Shown here one piece after another: positions 280-8,926 of a stretch of DNA of 9,040 nt. Under the pieces are notes generated by a model. The model saw only the letters and a program-made list of their open reading frames with translations. It ran no database searches and had not been told where the DNA came from. How positions within the stretch are numbered: the stretch's first letter is position 1; each line of letters starts with the position of its first letter. The position numbers were made by a program, and so were the translations under genes. The DNA comes from Caldilineaceae bacterium (GTDB lineage Bacteria > Chloroflexota > Anaerolineae > Caldilineales > Caldilineaceae), in contig JAPPKT010000414.1 of assembly GCA_028819675.1 (NCBI GenBank), positions 1 to 9,040 of the forward strand. Reading direction: 5' to 3'.

Positions 280-1431
280 ATGACAAGAATGAACGAAGCG
301 GCTGCAGTTGGTCAGGCGATCTGGCTGGACTTCATCAGGCGCTCCTTCCTGGATTCCGGGGAGCTGGGCGAACTGGTCGCCAAGGGGCTGCGGGGTGTTA
401 CGTCCAACCCGTCGATTTTCCAGAAGGCGATAACGGCCAGCACCGACTATGATGCCGCGGTGGAGCGGCTGGTGGGTGAAGGCAGTTCGGTCAACGACAT
501 ATACGAGGCGCTCGCTATCCAGGACATCCGCCGCGCGTGCGACATCATGCGGCCGGTCTACGAGAGCACGGACGGGGTGGACGGCTATGTCAGCCTGGAG
601 GTAAATCCAAAGCTGGCCTACGACACGGAAGGCACGGTCATGGAGGCCCGCCGTCTCTCGTCGCTGGTGGACAGGCCGAACGTAATGATCAAGGTGCCGG
701 CCACACCGGAGGGTATCCCGGCGATCGAGACGCTCACCGGCGAGGGCATCAACATCAACGTCACGCTCATCTTCTCTCTGCAGCAGTACGAAGCCAGCGC
801 GATGGCCTATATTCGCGGCCTGGAGAAGCTGGCGGATGCGAACGTGGATTTCAGCCGGGTGGCGTCGGTCGCTTCATTCTTCGTCAGCCGGGTGGACGGC
901 AAGGTTGACCCGAAGCTGGTTGATCTCGGCAACAGCGCGCTCCAGGGAAAGATCGCCATCGCCAATGCCAAGATGGCCTATCACCGCTTCGGCGAGATTT
1001 TCAGCGGTCCTCGCTGGGAGGAACTGGCGGCGCAGGGCGCGCGGGTACAGCGGCCGCTTTGGGGAAGTACGAGCACCAAGAATCCCGACTACCCGGACAC
1101 GCTGTACGTGGACACACTGATGGGGCCGCACACGGTCAATACGGTGCCACCTGAGACCCTGGATGCGTTTCTGGACCATGGCTGCGCGGCGCGCACAGTG
1201 GATGCGGACGTGGAAGAGGCCCGGCAGCATCTGAAGCAACTGGCTGAACTCGGCATCGATCTCGGCGACGTCACCACGCAGCTGATGGGTGAAGGAGTGG
1301 ACGCCTTCGCCGACTCATTTGATGAGCTGATGTCGGGCATTGCCGAGAAGGTGGCCGCCATCGCAGGCGGTGACGAGAACCAGACAAGAGCACGCGCCGA
1401 TTTTTTTACGGTGCCCTCCGGAGCCAGATAG
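280..1431 (+). CDS. tal: Transaldolase (zero-frame product of a probable frameshifted tal-pgi gene)
   Basis: Transaldolase (EC 2.2.1.2) moves a dihydroxyacetone unit between sugar phosphates in the non-oxidative pentose phosphate pathway, in the cytoplasm, through a Schiff-base lysine. The 383-residue product from ATG 280 shows the barrel signatures in order: IWLDFIRR (14-21, conserved Asp17), GVTSNPSIF (39-47), a SLEVNP-type strand near 105-110, MIKVPAT (136-142, Lys138 the expected Schiff-base residue), NVTLIFS and VASFFVSRVD. It belongs to the longer bacterial type found alone or fused to phosphoglucose isomerase. The last seven residues after the T7 run at 1401-1407 (TVPSGAR) do not look conserved. 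The alternative -1 frame gives a linker typical of Tal-Pgi fusions, so this ORF probably ends by normal termination when frameshifting does not occur. Family assignment is firm; the two-product model is inference. Confidence 0.95.
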   Translation: MTRMNEAAAVGQAIWLDFIRRSFLDSGELGELVAKGLRGVTSNPSIFQKAITASTDYDAAVERLVGEGSSVNDIYEALAIQDIRRACDIMRPVYESTDGVDGYVSLEVNPKLAYDTEGTVMEARRLSSLVDRPNVMIKVPATPEGIPAIETLTGEGININVTLIFSLQQYEASAMAYIRGLEKLADANVDFSRVASVASFFVSRVDGKVDPKLVDLGNSALQGKIAIANAKMAYHRFGEIFSGPRWEELAAQGARVQRPLWGSTSTKNPDYPDTLYVDTLMGPHTVNTVPPETLDAFLDHGCAARTVDADVEEARQHLKQLAELGIDLGDVTTQLMGEGVDAFADSFDELMSGIAEKVAAIAGGDENQTRARADFFTVPSGAR

Positions 1432-1446
1432 AGAGCGCTCTGGAGG
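1401..1446 (+). promoter_or_regulatory. Candidate programmed -1 ribosomal frameshift signal: T_TTT_TTT heptamer plus stem-loop
   Basis: In the tal frame the codons are GAT (1399-1401), TTT (1402-1404), TTT (1405-1407), ACG. Bases 1401-1407 therefore form T_TTT_TTT in the exact phase needed for tandem -1 slippage. A 7-base spacer (1408-1414) leads to a stem pairing CCTCCGGAGC (1415-1424) with GCTCTGGAGG (1437-1446). The stem is ten continuous pairs, nine Watson-Crick and one G-U, with a 12-base loop containing the zero-frame stop TAG (1429-1431). After slippage the next codon is TAC at 1407 and the frame stays open to 3089. Slippery heptamer, 5-9 base spacer and downstream structure are the known ingredients of -1 frameshift sites. 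No clear Shine-Dalgarno-like stimulator precedes the heptamer. RNA polymerase slippage on T7, or a missing T, would give the same fusion. Confidence 0.6.
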
Positions 1447-3089
1447 AGATCGACAGGGAGCGGATCGTCACACGCATCTGGGCCAGAAGCCACAGCGTGT
1501 GGAGCGACAGGTCTGACGAGATCGTAAACCGGCTGGGCTGGCTGGACATTGCCGTCAGGATGGATGAGGAGCGGCACTGCATCGACGCCCTGTTGCAGGA
1601 CCTGCAGCAGGAGGGCTACACGCAGGCGGTCCTGTTGGGTATGGGGGGTTCCAGCCTGGCGCCGGAGGTGTTTGCGCGTACATTCGGCAACGGGCCGATG
1701 ACTTTGCGGATATTGGACAGCACGCACCCGGCGGCTGTCCAGGGGCTGGCGGACAGTCTGGATCCGGCGCGAACGCTGTTTATCGTGGCCACCAAGTCGG
1801 GCACCACGGCGGAAACGCTGTCCCTCTTCAAGTACTTCTACAAGCAGCTGCAGGACCAGCTCGGCGAGGCGGAGGCGGGTGCGCACTTCGTTGCGATAAC
1901 GGATGCGGGCAGCGAACTGGTCAAGCTGGGACAGGCGTGCAATTTCCGCGCAGTCTTCATCAATGATCCGAACATAGGCGGCCGCTATTCGGCGCTATCG
2001 CACTTCGGGTTGATTCCTGCGGCACTGGTGGGGGTCAATCTGCGACGCATGCTGCGGCGGGCCATAGAGACGAAGAATGACTGCGGACGGCACATAACCG
2101 GGTCCCTCAATCCCGGCGCGCAGATCGGCGTTGTGATGGCGGAGATGGCCAAGGCGGGGCGGGACAAGCTGACGGTCATCGCGGACGAGGAGGTGGCTTC
2201 GTTCGCCGACTGGCTGGAGCAGCTGATCGCCGAGAGCACCGGTAAATCGGGGACGGGGATCGTGCCGGTGGTGGGTGAGCCGGCGGCGTCACCGGAGGCC
2301 TACGGCGCGGACCGGTTGTTCGTTCATTTGCAATGGAGCGACGCCGGCGCGCAGGACGGGAAGGTGCAGGCGCTGATCGACGCCGGACATCCGGTAATCC
2401 GGGTGCGCTTCCGTGACCGGTACGACCTGGGGGGACAGTTTTTCCTTTGGGAGTATGCTACGGCGGTGGCGGGGGCGCGTTTAGGCATTCACCCGTTTGA
2501 TCAGCCGGATGTTGAGTCGGCGAAGCAGCAGTCGCGGCAGATGATGTCGGCCTATATGGAGAGCGGAAGCCTGCCGGCGCCGCAGCCGGCGCTGGAGGCG
2601 GGGGGCTTAAAGGTATACCTTGGCGATGGGGACGGGGAGAGGGCGCCGGGCAGTGCGGTCGAAGCGCTGGCGGCCTTTGTGAGTCAGGCGGCAGTGGGGG
2701 ATTACATCAGCATTCAGGCGTATATTCGGCCCTGTTCGCCCGTGAGCAGATTGCTTGGGACCCTGCAGGGACGCCTGCGGGACAGGACCAAGCTGGCAAC
2801 GACGATCGGTTACGGTCCCCGTTTCCTCCACTCTACGGGCCAGCTGCACAAGGGTGATCGCGGCAACGGTCTCTTCATACAACTTACTGACAGGCCCTAT
2901 GCGGACGCCGACATCCCCGACGAGCCAGGTTCGGCGGCGTCGGCGGTGCCATTCGGGGTTTTGATCCAGGCGCAGTCGCTGGGAGACCGGCAGGCGCTGA
3001 TGGATGCAGGGCGGCGCGTGTTGCGGATCGACCTGGGGGAAGAGGTACAGTCGGAACTTGAGCGGCTGGTCAGTTCGCTGGCGGCGTGA
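1407..3089 (+). CDS. pgi: Phosphoglucose isomerase domain, -1 frame extension of transaldolase (Tal-Pgi)
   Basis: Glucose-6-phosphate isomerase (EC 5.3.1.9) interconverts glucose-6-P and fructose-6-P. Counting from GTG 1497, the SIS-fold signatures are VLLGMGGSSLA (45-55), ATKSGTTAET (98-107, phosphate loop), IGGRYSALS (160-168) and EQLIAESTGK (241-250, with the expected catalytic Glu). Towards the C-terminus comes HPFDQPDVESAK with the usual active-site Lys. The frame is open from 1374 but has no ATG, GTG or TTG before GTG 1497. Homology clearly starts earlier: codons 1431-1500 encode ALEEIDRERIVTRIWARSHSVW, the linker of fused Tal-Pgi proteins, and the GTG is the Val of that motif. Joined at 1407, the product has 376 + 560 = 936 residues, close to the fused family's length. 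A conventional call of 1497-3089 (530 residues) would truncate the domain and has no ribosome binding site. rpiA follows after 102 bases. Confidence 0.9.
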   Translation, partial: YGALRSQIESALEEIDRERIVTRIWARSHSVWSDRSDEIVNRLGWLDIAVRMDEERHCIDALLQDLQQEGYTQAVLLGMGGSSLAPEVFARTFGNGPMTLRILDSTHPAAVQGLADSLDPARTLFIVATKSGTTAETLSLFKYFYKQLQDQLGEAEAGAHFVAITDAGSELVKLGQACNFRAVFINDPNIGGRYSALSHFGLIPAALVGVNLRRMLRRAIETKNDCGRHITGSLNPGAQIGVVMAEMAKAGRDKLTVIADEEVASFADWLEQLIAESTGKSGTGIVPVVGEPAASPEAYGADRLFVHLQWSDAGAQDGKVQALIDAGHPVIRVRFRDRYDLGGQFFLWEYATAVAGARLGIHPFDQPDVESAKQQSRQMMSAYMESGSLPAPQPALEAGGLKVYLGDGDGERAPGSAVEALAAFVSQAAVGDYISIQAYIRPCSPVSRLLGTLQGRLRDRTKLATTIGYGPRFLHSTGQLHKGDRGNGLFIQLTDRPYADADIPDEPGSAASAVPFGVLIQAQSLGDRQALMDAGRRVLRIDLGEEVQSELERLVSSLAA

Positions 3090-3191: not shown

Positions 3192-3887
3192 ATGCAGATT
3201 CATGAGATAGAAGCTCTGAAGCGGCAGGCGGCCGAAGCTGCGGTGGCGCATGTCGAGTCCGGGATGATCGTGGGGTTGGGCGCGGGGAGTACGGCCCTGA
3301 AGGCGCTTGAGTGTATCGCGGAACGCTTGGCGATGGGTACACTCACAGGGATTCTCGGCGTCCCCTGTTCGGACCAGGTTGCGGCAGATGCGCGGCGGTT
3401 GGCAGTTCCGCTGACCACCCTGGCGTGTCATCCTCGCATTGACCTGACAGTTGACGGCGCAGATGAGGTAGACCCGCAGCTGCGTGTCATCAAAGGCGGG
3501 GGCGGCGCGCTCTTGCGCGAGAAGATTGTCGCCCAGGCGAGCGAACGGGAGATTATCGTCGTGGATGAGCGCAAGCTATCTGCGCGACTGGGCGAGAAGT
3601 GGGCCCTGCCGGTGGAGGCGCTTGCCTTTGGTCTGCGGGCCCATGTGGAGTACATTGAGCGGCTTGGCGCGGCAGTGGAGGTGCGGACGGGAGTGGATGG
3701 CAGTCCTTTTCGAACGGACAGCGGCAACTTGATCCTCGACTGTCAGTTTGGCCCAATGGACGATCCGGAGCATATTGCCGGCGCGCTGGAGAGGCGTGCC
3801 GGAGTCGTTGAGCACGGCCTATTCCTCGATCTGGTGACGGACTTGATCGTTGCCAGCCCCGCGGGTACGCAGCATCGATCCCGATAA
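3192..3887 (+). CDS. rpiA: Ribose-5-phosphate isomerase A
   Basis: RpiA (EC 5.3.1.6) interconverts ribose-5-P and ribulose-5-P. The 231 residues are a normal full length. Visible motifs are GLGAGSTA (28-35, phosphate-binding loop), DLTVDGADEVD (84-94), KGGGGALLREK (101-111) and VVDERK (123-128). By alignment with the well-studied E. coli enzyme, Asp88, Asp91, Lys101 and Glu110 correspond to its active-site Asp81, Asp84, Lys94 and Glu103. The start ATG follows GAAGCGGTGACAG, which has no strong Shine-Dalgarno sequence. No promoter or terminator is evident in the 102 bases after pgi, so co-transcription with tal-pgi is likely. With transaldolase and phosphoglucose isomerase next door, the cluster links hexose phosphates to ribose-5-P. 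The last residues after LIVASPAG are variable in the family. Confidence 0.95.
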   Translation: MQIHEIEALKRQAAEAAVAHVESGMIVGLGAGSTALKALECIAERLAMGTLTGILGVPCSDQVAADARRLAVPLTTLACHPRIDLTVDGADEVDPQLRVIKGGGGALLREKIVAQASEREIIVVDERKLSARLGEKWALPVEALAFGLRAHVEYIERLGAAVEVRTGVDGSPFRTDSGNLILDCQFGPMDDPEHIAGALERRAGVVEHGLFLDLVTDLIVASPAGTQHRSR

Positions 3888-4031: not shown

Positions 4032-5018
4032 TCACTGGGTCGACTGCGGGATAATCAGCTGATCACCGATGCGGAGCAGGTCGGCGTTGGAGATGTTGTT
4101 GGCCGCCTTGAGCGCGTCTACCGTGACGTCGAACTGCTGGGCAATGCCAAGAAGGGTATCTCCCTCCTGAACGGTGTAGAGCGTCTGATTCAGAATGTTT
4201 ACGTCGGCGGCGGACAGGCCGGGTATGAGAAGGACGGTATCGACCCTCACGACATGTGGATTGGTGATCGTGTTGCTATTGAAAGCGATCAGCTCGGCCA
4301 CGGTCACTCCGTACTGATCGGCGATGGAGGCGAGGGTTTCGCCGGGGCGGACGGTGTGGGTGCCCACCTGCCTAGAGAGGGCGGAATCGGCAGCGCCCCT
4401 TTGTGCGCTCGGCTGCCCGGTGGAAGCGCTCGAACTGGGGATCAGCAGTTCCTGGCCGATGGAGATGCTATGCTCGTCTCTAAGGTTGTTGAGACTGAGG
4501 ATGCGGTTCAAGGATACGTCGTAGCGAAGCGCAATCGACAGTAGGGTATCGCCCTCTTGAACAGTGTACTTGAACGGCTCAGGGGTGGGCGTAGGGATGC
4601 CTTCCGGCGTTGTCAGGCCGGGCACATAGGGCATACGCAGCACCTGCCCCACCTGGAGCGAGTCCGTGGTGAGCAGATTCATCTCCCGGATTCGCTGGAT
4701 CTCCGTGCCGAATTTTTCCGAAATTGTGGAGAGTGTATCTCCCGGTTTGACTTCATAGGTGACGGTGGACGGCACCGGAGTGTCTTCGGGAGTCGGAAGC
4801 GGTGTTTCGGTCGCCGCCGGTTGCGGCGTATCCGGTTCCATAACGACCGGTTCTTCTTGCGGCGGTTCCGAGGCGTTGCCCGCGTCCTCGGCCACGCGCT
4901 CACGGGTACATGCGGAGAGCAGGAGAATTGCCGCCAGCGTCAGGATGACGCCGGACATCCGCTTTGAGATCATTGACTGCGCTGCTGCTCTGACAAGTGA
5001 GCGCGACTGCGTTCCCAT
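4032..5018 (-). CDS. Secreted lipoprotein with four LysM domains
   Basis: The 328-residue protein starts at ATG 5018, chosen because GGAG lies 7 bases before it. An in-frame ATG at 5066 lacks support. The N-terminus has a basic region, a hydrophobic stretch (MSGVILTLAAILLLSAC) and a lipobox LSAC with Cys37, predicting lipid attachment and export. A Glu/Pro/Thr-rich linker (about 38-84) leads to four LysM repeats at about 86-130, 150-194, 220-266 and 290-324. Each begins with a YxVxxGDTL-type motif and ends in an LxIP-type strand. LysM modules bind N-acetylglucosamine-containing glycans such as peptidoglycan. No catalytic domain (NlpC/P60, M23 or amidase) follows, so it may be a cell-wall-binding or adaptor protein; the partner is unknown. 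Repeats 2 and 4 share YTVQEGDTLL, suggesting internal duplication. It reads away from the next gene and converges on rpiA. Confidence 0.9.
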   Translation of the reverse strand: MGTQSRSLVRAAAQSMISKRMSGVILTLAAILLLSACTRERVAEDAGNASEPPQEEPVVMEPDTPQPAATETPLPTPEDTPVPSTVTYEVKPGDTLSTISEKFGTEIQRIREMNLLTTDSLQVGQVLRMPYVPGLTTPEGIPTPTPEPFKYTVQEGDTLLSIALRYDVSLNRILSLNNLRDEHSISIGQELLIPSSSASTGQPSAQRGAADSALSRQVGTHTVRPGETLASIADQYGVTVAELIAFNSNTITNPHVVRVDTVLLIPGLSAADVNILNQTLYTVQEGDTLLGIAQQFDVTVDALKAANNISNADLLRIGDQLIIPQSTQ

Positions 5019-5025
5019 CGGTTTT

Positions 5026-5029
5026 CTCC
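5026..5029 (-). promoter_or_regulatory. Ribosome binding site of the LysM lipoprotein (decides the start)
   Basis: On the minus strand GGAG stands 7 bases before ATG 5018. It selects this start over the upstream in-frame ATG at 5066 and the downstream ATG at 4973. Confidence 0.65.
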
Positions 5030-5080
5030 ACTCCTGGAATCCATTTGCCCAGTCTGTTCGGGTCAAAAATCCGGAAACCT

Positions 5081-5539: not shown

Positions 5540-6760
5540 ATGATACTACGAATACTCTTGACAGGAACGACCCTATTGCTGCTGACCCTGGTCGCATCCG
5601 TTGGCGCGGCGGGGGCTTCCGGGCCGAAAGGGATCCCAATTTCCGGGATGGAGAACGTTCGCGCGTATGCGGCAGCGGCGCAGGTGGGCGGGCGCAGCTA
5701 CGCGGTGGATGGCGGACGGCTCTATGGTGGGCTCAATGGTGTCTGGGTGCCGCTGCCGGCGCCGCACGGTGTGATCGTCAACGCGGTCGCGGTGGACCGA
5801 ATGGAGCAGGATACTGTATTCATCGGCGCGGCCGACAGGCTCAGCGTGTATGTTTCCCGGGATGGAGGCGAGGGGTGGAAGGAGTTTGCGCTGGATGCGG
5901 ACGCGATTGGGGGCGTTACCGCAATGGCCTTTGACGCGTTCAACCGGCTGTTGTATGTAGGGACGGTTGCCGATGGTGTTTACCGTCTGCGGGACATCGG
6001 CACGGGTCCAGGAAAGGGTCTGATTGCGAGCGGCCATCTGCTGCTGGAGGAGCCCGTGCTGGAGATCGCGGTTGACAGCACGGGGGCAGGGCTAGGCTTT
6101 GTGCGCACTCCGGAAAGGCTGTATCGGGCCGAGGCCTACGGTCTGCGCTGGCTGGTTGTTGACAGTCTGCCTGGTCCGCCGACGGCCGTCGCGGTGAGCG
6201 ACGTGTCGCCGCCGAAGGTCTATTTGGGCACTGCAGGCGGGGGCGTGCTCGTGAGCGAGGACGGCACGGCATGGCAGGGGGTCAATCAGGGTCTGGACGG
6301 CGCGGGGGCCGGTATGCTTGTGATCAACGATCTAGCGGTGGACCCAGCGCGGCCAGAGGTTCTGTATGCGGCGACGAGCCTCTCAGACGCAGAAGGGTTC
6401 CACGGACACTCCGGCAGTGTGGCAGTTAGCACCGACAGCGGCCGCAGGTGGGAGAGTCTGGCGGTTTTGGAGAATGCGCAGGTGGCAGAGCTGTTGCCGG
6501 TGACCGGACGGAGCGGGCTGGTGTACGCGCTGACGACTGCCAGCCGGAGGCCGGTGGCGGTAGGCGAGGTGCCGCCGCTGGTGATGCAGGAAACCGGCGG
6601 GTTGCCCGGAAGTGGTTTGAGAAGTCCCGGACTGCTGGCCTGGATTCTGGCAGGGCACGCTAGTGCGGCGCTCATCATTCTGGGTGTCAGCGAATTCAGA
6701 GGAGGAGACAGGCGGAGAGGCGGCACGGCTTACGGTCTGCGCACCGCTGAGGCGGGCTGA
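5540..6760 (+). CDS. Exported, membrane-anchored Asp-box beta-propeller protein
   Basis: A 406-residue protein of unknown function. ATG 5540 is preceded by a strong GAGGAGGA site (5526-5533) at 6 bases. Residues 1-27 form a signal-peptide-like hydrophobic segment rich in Leu and Ala. The body shows repeated strand pairs such as RLLYVGTVADGVYRL and KVYLGTAGGGVLVS. It has three Asp-box motifs, SRDGGEGW (106-113), SEDGTAW (239-245) and STDSGRRW (297-304), as in sialidase, BNR and photosystem-assembly-type propellers. Asp boxes are structural turns, so no enzyme activity follows from them, and I see no sialidase arginine triad pattern. Residues about 363-383 are a hydrophobic helix followed by an Arg-rich tail (RRGGDRRR type), predicting a C-terminal anchor with the propeller outside. 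It stands alone between a divergent and a convergent neighbour. Confidence 0.75.
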   Translation: MILRILLTGTTLLLLTLVASVGAAGASGPKGIPISGMENVRAYAAAAQVGGRSYAVDGGRLYGGLNGVWVPLPAPHGVIVNAVAVDRMEQDTVFIGAADRLSVYVSRDGGEGWKEFALDADAIGGVTAMAFDAFNRLLYVGTVADGVYRLRDIGTGPGKGLIASGHLLLEEPVLEIAVDSTGAGLGFVRTPERLYRAEAYGLRWLVVDSLPGPPTAVAVSDVSPPKVYLGTAGGGVLVSEDGTAWQGVNQGLDGAGAGMLVINDLAVDPARPEVLYAATSLSDAEGFHGHSGSVAVSTDSGRRWESLAVLENAQVAELLPVTGRSGLVYALTTASRRPVAVGEVPPLVMQETGGLPGSGLRSPGLLAWILAGHASAALIILGVSEFRGGDRRRGGTAYGLRTAEAG

Positions 6761-7018
6761 TGGAGATGGCCCGGTGCTGGTCAGGTCTGGGGTTTCAAGG
6801 CCCTGAGGCGGCAGTGCGAAGGCGCCCGCTCCCCCGCGGGCGTCTCCGAGATCTGTGATGCCTTTTGGAGTAGTGTGCGGGTGTTGGAACAGGACCGTTT
6901 CCCTTTGTGGACGAAGTCTTGTCCGGGCTTGCTGGCGTTTGCGTTGACGGAAATGTGGAAGGGCAAGACCGGGTCTATCCAGGGAGGGTTACAGAGGTTG
7001 AGGAAGGGCTATCAGGTA
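6761..7018. other. Intergenic stretch before the hairpin repeats
   Basis: These 258 bases follow the Asp-box gene. Apart from the stem at 6821-6844 no gene, promoter or RNA is evident. Open frames run through it on both strands, but they lack ribosome binding sites and on the + strand run into sequence antisense to the J-like gene. Confidence 0.4.
6821..6844. terminator. GC-rich stem downstream of the Asp-box gene, weak terminator candidate
   Basis: GGCGCCCGC (6821-6829) pairs with GCGGGCGTC (6836-6844), nine pairs including one G-U, around a six-base TCCCCC loop. It lies 60 bases after the stop codon. No T-run follows on either strand, so intrinsic termination is uncertain. Confidence 0.3.
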
Positions 7019-7144
7019 AACACGAGGGCACCCACAAGGGGTGCCCCTACGGGAGGGGTGAACGCCAGGGCACCCACGAGGGGTGCCCCTACGGGAGGGG
7101 CGAACACGAGGGCACCCACAAGGGGTGCCCCTACAGGGGGGTTC
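7019..7144. repeat. Three tandem 42-bp units, each containing a perfect hairpin
   Basis: Units at 7019-7060, 7061-7102 and 7103-7144 begin with AAC and share a core GGGCACCC-ACAAG or ACGAG-GGGTGCCC. In each unit the 8-bp arms pair perfectly around a 5-base loop (unit 1: 7026-7033 with 7039-7046). The few differences between units fall in loops and flanks, leaving the stems intact. The array lies between convergent genes. The 42-base period keeps frames open and would encode repeats of RAPTRGAPTGG. There is no start context and the frame continues into the antisense of the next gene, so a non-coding structural element is more likely. Confidence 0.8.
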
Positions 7145-7233: not shown

Positions 7234-7995
7234 CTATCTCAACTGGGGGAAAGCAGATGCGATGGTCAGGCCGGCAAAGAGGAGCAGCATCAGAAAGGCT
7301 CTACCGCCTGAAAGGAGGAAGAGAAGCGCCCAGGGCGCCACGCCCAGAATGATGCCGGCGATGGCCATGTGGGGCAGCTTGCGGCCGCGGCGGTTGCCCA
7401 CTGCGCTGCGGATGATGCGGGCGGCGAGCGTACCGGCGCCGGAACCGATGATGAATGCGATGAAGAATCCGAAGAAACCGATGCTACCGAGCAGAAAGCC
7501 GACGATGGGGGCGACGATCAGTGTAAGAACAAAGCCGACGGCGAGGGCGACGATGTTGTCCCGGCCCAGGGCATTGAAGTAGATGTTCTGCTGCTCGCGG
7601 ACACATTCGTTGCAGCGGTAGCCGACGGGGGTACGGACGGCGCAGGAGATGCAGATCGGTTTTCCGCACTTGTTGCAGCGCAGGAGCGTTTCCCGATCGG
7701 GGTGGTTGGCGCAGGTCAGACTTTCTGGTTCGCCGTCGCTGCCTACCTGGATTGGAGCCGGTCTGCCGTCATAGATGGCGCGCCGGGCGGGGTCGCCAAG
7801 GATTTCGTAGGCTTTTTCGATTTCAGCCAACTTCTGTTCAGCGTAGGCGCGGTCGGCGGCGGATTCCAGCGTGTCGGGCTGGTAGAGCTTCTGCAACCGT
7901 ATGAACTGCTGTGCGACTTCCTCCTGATCGGCATCTTCGCTCAAATCGAGAGTACGGTATAGCTCCTTATCGGTTTGGTTGGAACTGTCTGACAT
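7234..7995 (-). CDS. J-like domain, B-box-type zinc finger and transmembrane protein
   Basis: A 253-residue protein. ATG 7995 is chosen because the J-like domain starts just after it. The GTG at 8031 is an alternative, and neither has a strong ribosome binding site. Residues about 11-78 resemble a DnaJ J-domain (YRTLDLSEDADQEEV, then EIEKAYEILGDPARRAIYDG). The HPD tripeptide that stimulates Hsp70 ATPase is QPD here (39-41), so classical co-chaperone activity is doubtful. Residues 95-131 carry C95, H98, C107, C110, C115, C118, C128 and C131 in a B-box-like spacing, probably binding two zinc ions. Residues about 147-250 are very hydrophobic with three or four membrane segments and a basic loop (NRRGRK, 201-206). 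The soluble domains are probably cytoplasmic. It begins 64 bases after nadK on the same strand. No function can be assigned. Confidence 0.8.
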   Translation of the reverse strand: MSDSSNQTDKELYRTLDLSEDADQEEVAQQFIRLQKLYQPDTLESAADRAYAEQKLAEIEKAYEILGDPARRAIYDGRPAPIQVGSDGEPESLTCANHPDRETLLRCNKCGKPICISCAVRTPVGYRCNECVREQQNIYFNALGRDNIVALAVGFVLTLIVAPIVGFLLGSIGFFGFFIAFIIGSGAGTLAARIIRSAVGNRRGRKLPHMAIAGIILGVAPWALLFLLSGGRAFLMLLLFAGLTIASAFPQLR

Positions 7996-8059
7996 CAGAG
8001 TTTGCTTTCTACTAAATTGCGGTCCTTGCACAGGGGGCGCAATGTGGGCGTCAGGTTGA

Positions 8060-8926
8060 TCATTGCATCTTTTCCATCAGCGTCTGGTAAAAGTAGCTGC
8101 GCGGGCGAAGACGGACGAAGCGTGCTTGATAGGGGCTGCTGTCGACGACGATTTCGTCCGTGTCGTCCACTTCGACTTCGAACTGGCCGTCCACAGTGAG
8201 CATGGCGGAGTGGTCGCTGTAGACGCGCAGTCTGACCTCGGTGCCTTCGGAGAGGACGACGGCCCGGTCCATGCTCATGTGAGGGGCGACGGGGATCACG
8301 AGGATATTGCGCAGGTCGGGCGGCAGGATTGGGCCGCCTGCTGCGAGGGCGTAAGCGGTACTGCCGGTGGCGGTACTGACGATAAGGCCGTCGCAGGTAT
8401 AGGTGGTGAGGTAGCCGCCATCGAGGTTGGCGCTGACGCGGACGATGCGGGCGAGGCTGCCGCGGCTGAGAACGACGTCGTTGAGGGCGTCGAAGGTGCA
8501 GCGAACAGTGGGTTCGCCGCCGTTGGTGCTGGCTTTTTCCACGATTGCGCGAACCATGAGCCGTTCTTCGATCCAGTAGTCGCCGTCGAGCAGCTTTTCC
8601 AAGGGGGATGGCCAGTCCTGGGGAAAGATTTCGGCCAGAAAGCCGAGCCTGCCCATCTTTACACCCAGCATAGGCACGTTGAAGGCAGCGCCGAGCCGGG
8701 CGGCCCGCAGCATTGTACCGTCGCCGCCGAGGGTGATCAGCAGGTCGACGTCCGGGAGTCTGGACTTGATGACCTCGGAGTCCCAGGCGGAATGGCGCCA
8801 TGTTTCATTGACACCGGCACTGCGCAGAAACTGTTCCATTTGACCCGCCAGATCGAGGGATTCCGGTTTGCGAGGGTGGTGCAGGATGCCGATGCGTTGA
8901 AATGTGCAGGTTTCGTCGTCCATCAT
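8060..8926 (-). CDS. nadK: NAD kinase (ATP/polyphosphate-NAD 2'-phosphotransferase)
   Basis: NAD kinase (EC 2.7.1.23) makes NADP from NAD in the cytoplasm. The 288 residues are the normal length. Signatures are present in order: LLITLGGDGTML (62-73, with the GGDGT motif and Asp69), VKMGRLGFLAE (89-99), ALND (147-150, the NE/D motif), DGLIVSTATGSTAYALAAGG (179-198, NAD-binding loop), VAPHM (213-217) and VDGQ (245-248). The start is ATG 8926 or the adjacent ATG 8923; no strong Shine-Dalgarno sequence precedes either, only GGGAAAG about 12 bases upstream. It is the first gene of a minus-strand pair. Long open frames also exist on the opposite strand but carry no recognisable domain. Confidence 0.95.
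   Translation of the reverse strand: MMDDETCTFQRIGILHHPRKPESLDLAGQMEQFLRSAGVNETWRHSAWDSEVIKSRLPDVDLLITLGGDGTMLRAARLGAAFNVPMLGVKMGRLGFLAEIFPQDWPSPLEKLLDGDYWIEERLMVRAIVEKASTNGGEPTVRCTFDALNDVVLSRGSLARIVRVSANLDGGYLTTYTCDGLIVSTATGSTAYALAAGGPILPPDLRNILVIPVAPHMSMDRAVVLSEGTEVRLRVYSDHSAMLTVDGQFEVEVDDTDEIVVDSSPYQARFVRLRPRSYFYQTLMEKMQ

Follow-up and report, generated by a model that had tools for sequence, protein, structure and literature searches.

The window analysed here is the whole 9040-base stretch of contig JAPPKT010000414.1, from a Caldilineaceae bacterium, with a GC content of 61.5%. It carries a transaldolase gene (tal) and, in the -1 frame relative to it, the coding sequence of a phosphoglucose isomerase (pgi), the features of the junction being collected in Table 1. 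The ATG at 280 was picked as the tal start by way of the conserved MTxM, the TTG at 262 being likewise open. In one relative (L004) a polyphosphate glucokinase gene (NF045942, 352 bits vs a cut-off of 250) precedes tal and rpiA comes after, and the surroundings of tal-pgi are a glucose-6-phosphate and pentose phosphate neighbourhood. Elsewhere the window encodes a LysM-repeat-like protein (4032-5066, minus strand), a protein with a weak F510_1955 glycosylhydrolase match (5540-6757, plus strand) and an NAD kinase-like protein (8060-8926, minus strand). A 42-base GC-rich unit is repeated in tandem, in about three copies, at 7015-7142, just past the 3' end of a minus-strand gene at 7234-8031 whose product has a DnaJ-like N-terminus.

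Table 1. Features of the tal-pgi locus, in window positions.
Feature	Positions	Strand	Remarks
tal, zero-frame transaldolase ORF	280..1431	+	383 aa, ends FFTVPSGAR-TAG; the termination product
Slippery heptamer T_TTT_TTT	1401..1407	+	in phase with tal
pgi, -1 frame phosphoglucose isomerase part	1401..3089	+	562 aa, predicted to be entered via frameshift; no start codon near its beginning
Spacer from heptamer to stem, 7 bases	1408..1414	+	length the same in 16/16 sequences, letters vary
Stem 5' arm CCTCCGGAGC	1415..1424	+	proposed stimulatory stem; 10 standard pairs in 16/16
tal zero-frame TAG stop	1429..1431	+	inside the loop of the stem
Stem 3' arm GCTCTGGAGG	1437..1446	+	unvarying in 16/16
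Predicted trans-frame product Tal-Pgi	280..3089	+	936 aa
rpiA, ribose-5-phosphate isomerase, downstream neighbour	3192..3887	+	NF001924, 229 bits vs cut-off 192

An earlier note on this DNA had claimed that homology passes from the tal frame to the -1 frame at T_TTT_TTT and that the run lies in slippery phase, and both observations were borne out. The family profile NF007080 (PRK09533), 949 positions long, is matched by the zero frame over positions 4-385 and by the -1 frame over 391-944. The two halves score 525.7 and 626.9 bits, respectively, each below the whole-protein cut-off of 712 because each was scanned alone. In the tal frame the codons at the border read GAT TTT TTT ACG GTG CCC TCC GGA GCC AGA TAG; one base back from the T7 they read TTT TTT TAC GGT GCC CTC CGG AGC CAG ATA GAG, and so on into Pgi. 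The T7 is the sole run of at least six T or A in the window. The heptamer is also the sole one that is in phase where both frames are open, as it is in each of the 16 sequences compared, ie the window, 14 related loci and the more distant locus L031. It reads T_TTT_TTT in 15 of the 16 and T_TTT_TTC in L031. In L031 a -1 frame TGA directly 5' of the heptamer leaves both frames open for just 28 nt, and T_TTT_TTC is the sole in-phase heptamer in that overlap. Three loci (L007, L008 and L013) have T8 through an A-to-T change directly after the run, with the frame unaltered. Both observed heptamers are in phase (16/16) and fit H_HH.U_UU.Y, a type that shifts in bacteria; passages of PMC4066793 place H_HH.U_UU.Y heptamers among the most efficient in E. 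coli. A degenerate pattern, made up of the heptamer and the beginning of the stem, gave one match per genome in 6/6 genomes, and the reversed control gave none.

The earlier note had placed the ten-pair stem, its TAG-holding loop and the 7-base spacer correctly. One of the ten pairs is G-U, and the loop of 12 bases includes the TAG. Folding of 1408-1460 gave -23.2 kcal/mol with a z score of -2.8, longer folds being less striking (z -1.2 for 1401-1470 and -1.6 for 1408-1500). Ten-pair stems are not unusual, 27 rows of them being found in the 9-kb window with nested registers included, so that, with the weaker longer folds, the case for the stem rests on comparison with relatives. A predicted downstream structure lies 7 nt past the heptamer, within the range of about 5-9 nt, in all 16 sequences. 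Among the ten relatives that were folded, L003 did not outdo its shuffled versions (z -0.32), and the scores of L001 (-1.79) and L010 (-1.54) were modest. The conservation that the earlier note had looked for in relatives was found for the phase, the spacer, the stem and the stop (16/16) and for the T7 except in L031 (T6 then C), but did not extend to compensatory changes, none being seen in the stem across the 16 sequences. Nine of the ten pairs are invariant and one is G-U in one sequence; with arms that hardly vary no compensatory change can be seen, and the structure is deduced from the conserved complementary arms.

Three further elements were considered. A pseudoknot between loop positions 1425-1429 and 1476-1480 would pair in 95% of cells; it shows no two-sided change, its 3' part encodes a conserved RIW, and a pseudoknot is not claimed. 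Neither is a lower helix (1409-1412 with 1449-1452), which has no two-sided change, four unpaired cells and a variable codon. A Shine-Dalgarno-like stimulator upstream of the heptamer is not conserved, any listed match in the 30 nt upstream being present in only 1/16 sequences.

A scan of genome contigs with the Pgi part as query gave 16 loci, of which 14 (L001-L014, all Caldilineaceae) hold the junction; L015 is a fragment without the junction, and L016 (Haloechinothrix) is a distant gene without this junction. The frame break is identical in all 14 of these junction loci and in L031. Two of them (L004 and L006) lie on single chromosome records of 5.4 and 5.95 Mb, and most others are on NODE or k141 contigs. 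A search at the rank of family covered 46 genomes, the same 46 as a search at the rank of order; 42 have a Pgi match and four do not. The frame break is present in 15 of the 42 (G001-G014 and G021), the most divergent being G021, which holds L031 and is 73% identical in Pgi. Nine others have one-frame fusions, in frames of 952-1137 aa, four have Pgi without an adjacent tal, one (G019) has a fragment, and 13 have a distant Pgi only. For G019, with its pgi fragment, no tal was found in the contigs searched; P0135, a database Tal from the same bin, ends ADFFTVPSGAR.

On its profile match (NF002881, 504 bits vs a cut-off of 367) the zero-frame product counts as a complete transaldolase, and it covers positions 1-283 of the 285 of PF00923. 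Its TAG lies at +28 from the first T of the run in 16/16 sequences. Codon 10 of pgi, which holds the TA of the TAG, encodes Val or Ile and is always GTA or ATA, codons which together make up 12% of the Val and Ile codons in these genes. When the 383-aa Tal was searched against the protein database, 79 entries reached E <= 1e-150, one of them being that of the window itself, and 76 of the 79 end exactly seven residues past FF. The exceptions are P0195 (374 aa, on a 1609-base contig), which stops just before the site, and P0198 and P0199, which are of other types. The S-x-A near the end of these Tal entries is SGA in 70, SRA in four and SEA in two. The six proteins that end SRA or SEA (P0184, P0186, P0190, P0193, P0194 and P0197) imply changes in the 5' arm of the stem. 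In the 14 genomes searched with PF00923, this tal was found together with one weak match of 61-65 bits in each (G001-G014), the latter possibly a fructose-6-phosphate aldolase or TalC-like protein. A search of viral contigs for tal gave no relative.

Synonymous variation was measured as the fraction of codon pairs with the same residue in which the two codons are different, over a codon alignment of 939 columns and 16 sequences, in 926 windows of 14 codons. The minimum was 0.054, compared with 0.365 overall and with 0.176 for the lowest value elsewhere, and each of the twelve lowest of the 926 windows begins within the stretch from tal codon 370 to pgi codon 7. Being related, the 16 sequences do not count as independent trials; when whole columns were shuffled, which keeps the relatedness, none of 2000 shuffles reached the observed minimum. 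By way of background, passages of PMC4066793 report reduced synonymous variability near the site in 2 of 56 non-mobile candidate clusters of E. coli, where low divergence may mask it.

In none of the 16 sequences does the -1 frame hold an ATG, GTG or TTG in the part that is open ahead of the T run, which is 0 to 26 codons long. The first start codon in the Pgi frame that is common to all 16 is the ATG at codon 54; before it, codon 33 is GTG in 13/16 and codon 17 is ATG in L031 alone (1/16). Over pgi codons 18-53, pS is 0.478 and dN/dS is 0.097, about as low as in tal (0.09), and in three stretches from codon 18 onward dN/dS is 0.097-0.147. Over codons 1-17, pS falls to 0.133 and pN stays at 0.10 (dN/dS 0.74), so that the nucleotides are held more than the protein. 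The -1 frame is under purifying selection 5' of any conserved start codon. Given this selection on codons 18-53 and the lack of a conserved start before codon 54, independent initiation of Pgi is a poor explanation. In the 14 frameshift genomes searched, PF00342 has exactly one match per genome, in the -1 frame. G021, a genome outside the PF00342 and PF00923 searches, gave one match with the Pgi part as query. By PF00342 detection, then, the Pgi in the -1 frame is apparently the cell's only phosphoglucose isomerase.

That Tal-Pgi exists elsewhere as a single-frame fusion, as the earlier note had it, is confirmed by the NF007080 family and by the nine one-frame fusions among the 46 genomes. The in-frame fusion nearest to the joined protein is 67% identical among the best 120 of 8000 scored; close relatives with a simple in-frame fusion, which would have spoken against frameshifting, were thus not found above that identity in these 120. 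The motif FFxGxLR occurs in none of the listed 120 (best 120 of 8000). A tree of 29 Pgi sequences groups all 16 that have the frame break together (support 100/100, and 100% of 200 bootstrap trees), with the nine one-frame fusions and four stand-alone genes outside it. The tree was midpoint-rooted for drawing, 6 of its 26 inner branches are unresolved, and it contains two long in-frame rows. The simplest history would be that one base was lost in the linker of an in-frame fusion and that the gene was kept via the slippery site and hairpin, which would show on the tree how an in-frame fusion is likely to have turned into a gene that depends on frameshifting. One genome with an in-frame fusion (G029) has two Tal-Pgi copies, the second being 56% identical to the query in Pgi.

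The class was surveyed more broadly in 396 sampled genomes, 246 of which have a Pgi match at E <= 1e-30, and 40 Anaerolineae regions were hand-picked among the matches listed with short open frames. No tal match was found upstream of pgi in 36 of the 40 regions, over about 1.5 kb where the contig allowed and over just 540 bases in L067. The other four (L074, L076, L061 and L055) have tal upstream of pgi, and in none of them do the frames and starts suggest a slippery junction. L074 and L076 have separate tal and pgi genes with a 4-base ATGA start/stop overlap (about 1480-1500, coding strand), an alternative coupling of the same two enzymes. In L055 possible pgi starts occur from 61 nt past the tal stop. 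In L061 (about 1426-1453, coding strand) tal and pgi are in one frame with a stop between them, an ATG follows 27 nt after the stop, and the tal match extends beyond the stop. Five class relatives (G198, G371, G366, G375 and G276) have one in-frame stop inside the Pgi match.

The earlier note's interpretation, a programmed -1 frameshift, is supported by the shared frame break, the anatomy of the signal, the collapse of synonymous variation and the selection on the -1 frame. On these comparisons a conserved, canonical -1 programmed ribosomal frameshift very probably gives Tal plus Tal-Pgi. Ribosomes translating tal would meet U_UUU_UUU (U_UUU_UUC in L031) with a strong hairpin 7 bases downstream, and in a fraction of passages the two Phe-tRNAs in the P and A sites would re-pair one base back. 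Ribosomes that do not shift would terminate at the UAG within the hairpin, giving the complete 383-aa transaldolase, and those that shift would continue to the 936-aa Tal-Pgi fusion. Since PF00342 finds no Pgi in these genomes other than this second half, frameshifting would both supply Pgi and fix the ratio of Tal to Tal-Pgi, with free Tal made whenever the efficiency is below 100%. We infer that slipping is done by the ribosome and not by RNA polymerase, that the hairpin probably stimulates the shift, that slippage sets the product ratio and that there is a metabolic benefit, for example that fructose-6-phosphate made by Tal is led by way of Pgi back into the pentose phosphate cycle. A more elaborate possibility is a regulated valve, in which the efficiency of frameshifting, ie the Pgi-carrying share of transaldolase, would vary with physiology, such as Phe-tRNA charging or growth state, and so steer fructose-6-phosphate between glycolysis and the cyclic pentose phosphate pathway; this we consider rather doubtful.

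The same two products could in principle come from RNA polymerase, which would add a U within the T7 in some transcripts, normal translation of these then giving Tal-Pgi. A T7 or T8 is kept in 15/16 sequences, poly-A/T runs are described in parts of PMC3711429 as slippery for RNA polymerase as well as for ribosomes, and according to passages of PMC4066793 E. coli genes contain less UUUUUUU than expected in every frame, possibly on account of such slippage. Some transcriptional slippage is possible both in the T8 species (L007, L008 and L013) and in the T7 species. A long homopolymer is not found in every member, however, since the run in L031 is only T6 followed by C within the same architecture. 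The T8 of the three loci arose by an A-to-T change that leaves the frame unchanged, and a slipping polymerase would need no codon phase, fixed 7-base spacer or stem. Mainly on account of the T6C in L031, this route to the fusion is judged to be distinctly unlikely.

Translation of pgi as a separate gene, by coupling or re-initiation after the TAG with GGAGG in the 3' arm as ribosome-binding site, has in its favour the likeness of that GGAGG (1442-1446) to such a site, the ATG at codon 54 in 16/16 and the other Anaerolineae with neighbouring tal and pgi, overlapping by ATGA in L074 and L076. The -1 frame has no start before the run in any of the 16, though, the codon 54 ATG is the first universal one, and codons 18-53 upstream of it are under purifying selection. 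Moreover, the stand-alone Pgi of L042-L045 has its start ATG two codons ahead of the place that corresponds to pgi codon 1, and that ATG is absent here. Two independently started genes are hence highly improbable. The earlier note had also weighed an indel, T8 to T7, as sequencing error or mutation; homopolymers are in general error-prone, and one more base would restore a single frame. An error in sequencing or assembly, or a recent one-base deletion that had left a pseudogene, fails for the clade, as the 14 related loci and L031 share the break. The same break thus occurs in 15 further genomes, and it is implied in 76 of the 79 database Tal proteins, 7 of the 79 rows having a longest contig listed at >5 Mb. 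Both halves are under purifying selection, and L031 shows the same break with a different heptamer, leaving this explanation a negligible chance.

No published case of frameshifting for transaldolase or phosphoglucose isomerase was found in the full-text literature (main texts, with few subscription journals), which agrees with the earlier note's statement that no case in this enzyme pair was known to it. The word 'transaldolase' is absent from the main texts of PMC3711429, PMC4066793 and PMC10885494, and from the first 300,000 characters of PMC5009743. According to the part of PMC3711429 that describes it, the GeneTack survey comprised 146 clusters chosen by seven A-rich heptamers. On its sequence features, tal-pgi is a clear candidate for -1 programmed frameshifting in a new gene and in a new, central metabolic setting. 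To our knowledge, few housekeeping genes of bacteria have a conserved programmed frameshift. The frameshift appears to control the output of Pgi, a core glycolytic enzyme, and its ratio to transaldolase, and a set ratio of Tal to Tal-Pgi would operate within the glucose-6-phosphate and pentose phosphate neighbourhood of the gene. The clade comprises the 16 sequences described here and dozens of database entries, the two partly overlapping. Frameshifting would also explain why named entries of the clade are called transaldolase, with no close Tal-Pgi fusion among the best 120 of 8000.

Several known systems resemble the arrangement. In E. coli dnaX, which encodes tau and gamma, a slippery heptamer and a downstream stem-loop give two products in a set ratio, for which the figure is 50%; the frameshift there yields the shorter product and is helped by an upstream Shine-Dalgarno-like stimulator. 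The heptamer with its downstream stem-loop is shared with tal-pgi, as the two products would be, but here the frameshift product would be the long one and an upstream stimulator is not conserved (1/16). The orfA-orfB pairs of insertion sequences of the IS3/IS911 type make a short zero-frame product and a long trans-frame fusion, using a heptamer and a 3' structure. Their geometry is similar to that of tal-pgi, which, unlike them, is a housekeeping gene of the pentose phosphate pathway and glycolysis and not a mobile element. U_UU.U_UU.C is itself among the insertion-sequence motifs given in passages of PMC4066793.

The in-frame Tal-Pgi proteins of PRK09533/NF007080 share the order of domains and have a similar length (936 aa vs 839-949 aa, all but one being at least 909 aa, in the best 120 of 8000), but are encoded in one open frame. 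No H_HH.U_UU.Y heptamer is present at the junction in any of the nine in-frame relatives examined, L035 having TTTGGGC, so that these fusions would make no free Tal by frameshifting. The closest known kind, as described in parts of PMC3711429 and PMC9227772, is the chlD gene of magnesium chelatase (fs-chlD), where a -1 frameshift at an A/T-rich site leads to two enzyme subunits, one short and one long. Those parts also describe a chromosomal biosynthetic gene, usually with a downstream structure and with single-frame fusions elsewhere, in all of which tal-pgi is alike. The three cassettes tested there are poly-A, however, and the products are subunits of one chelatase (PMC3711429, PMC9227772), whereas the site in tal-pgi is poly-U and its second frame encodes another enzyme of central metabolism.
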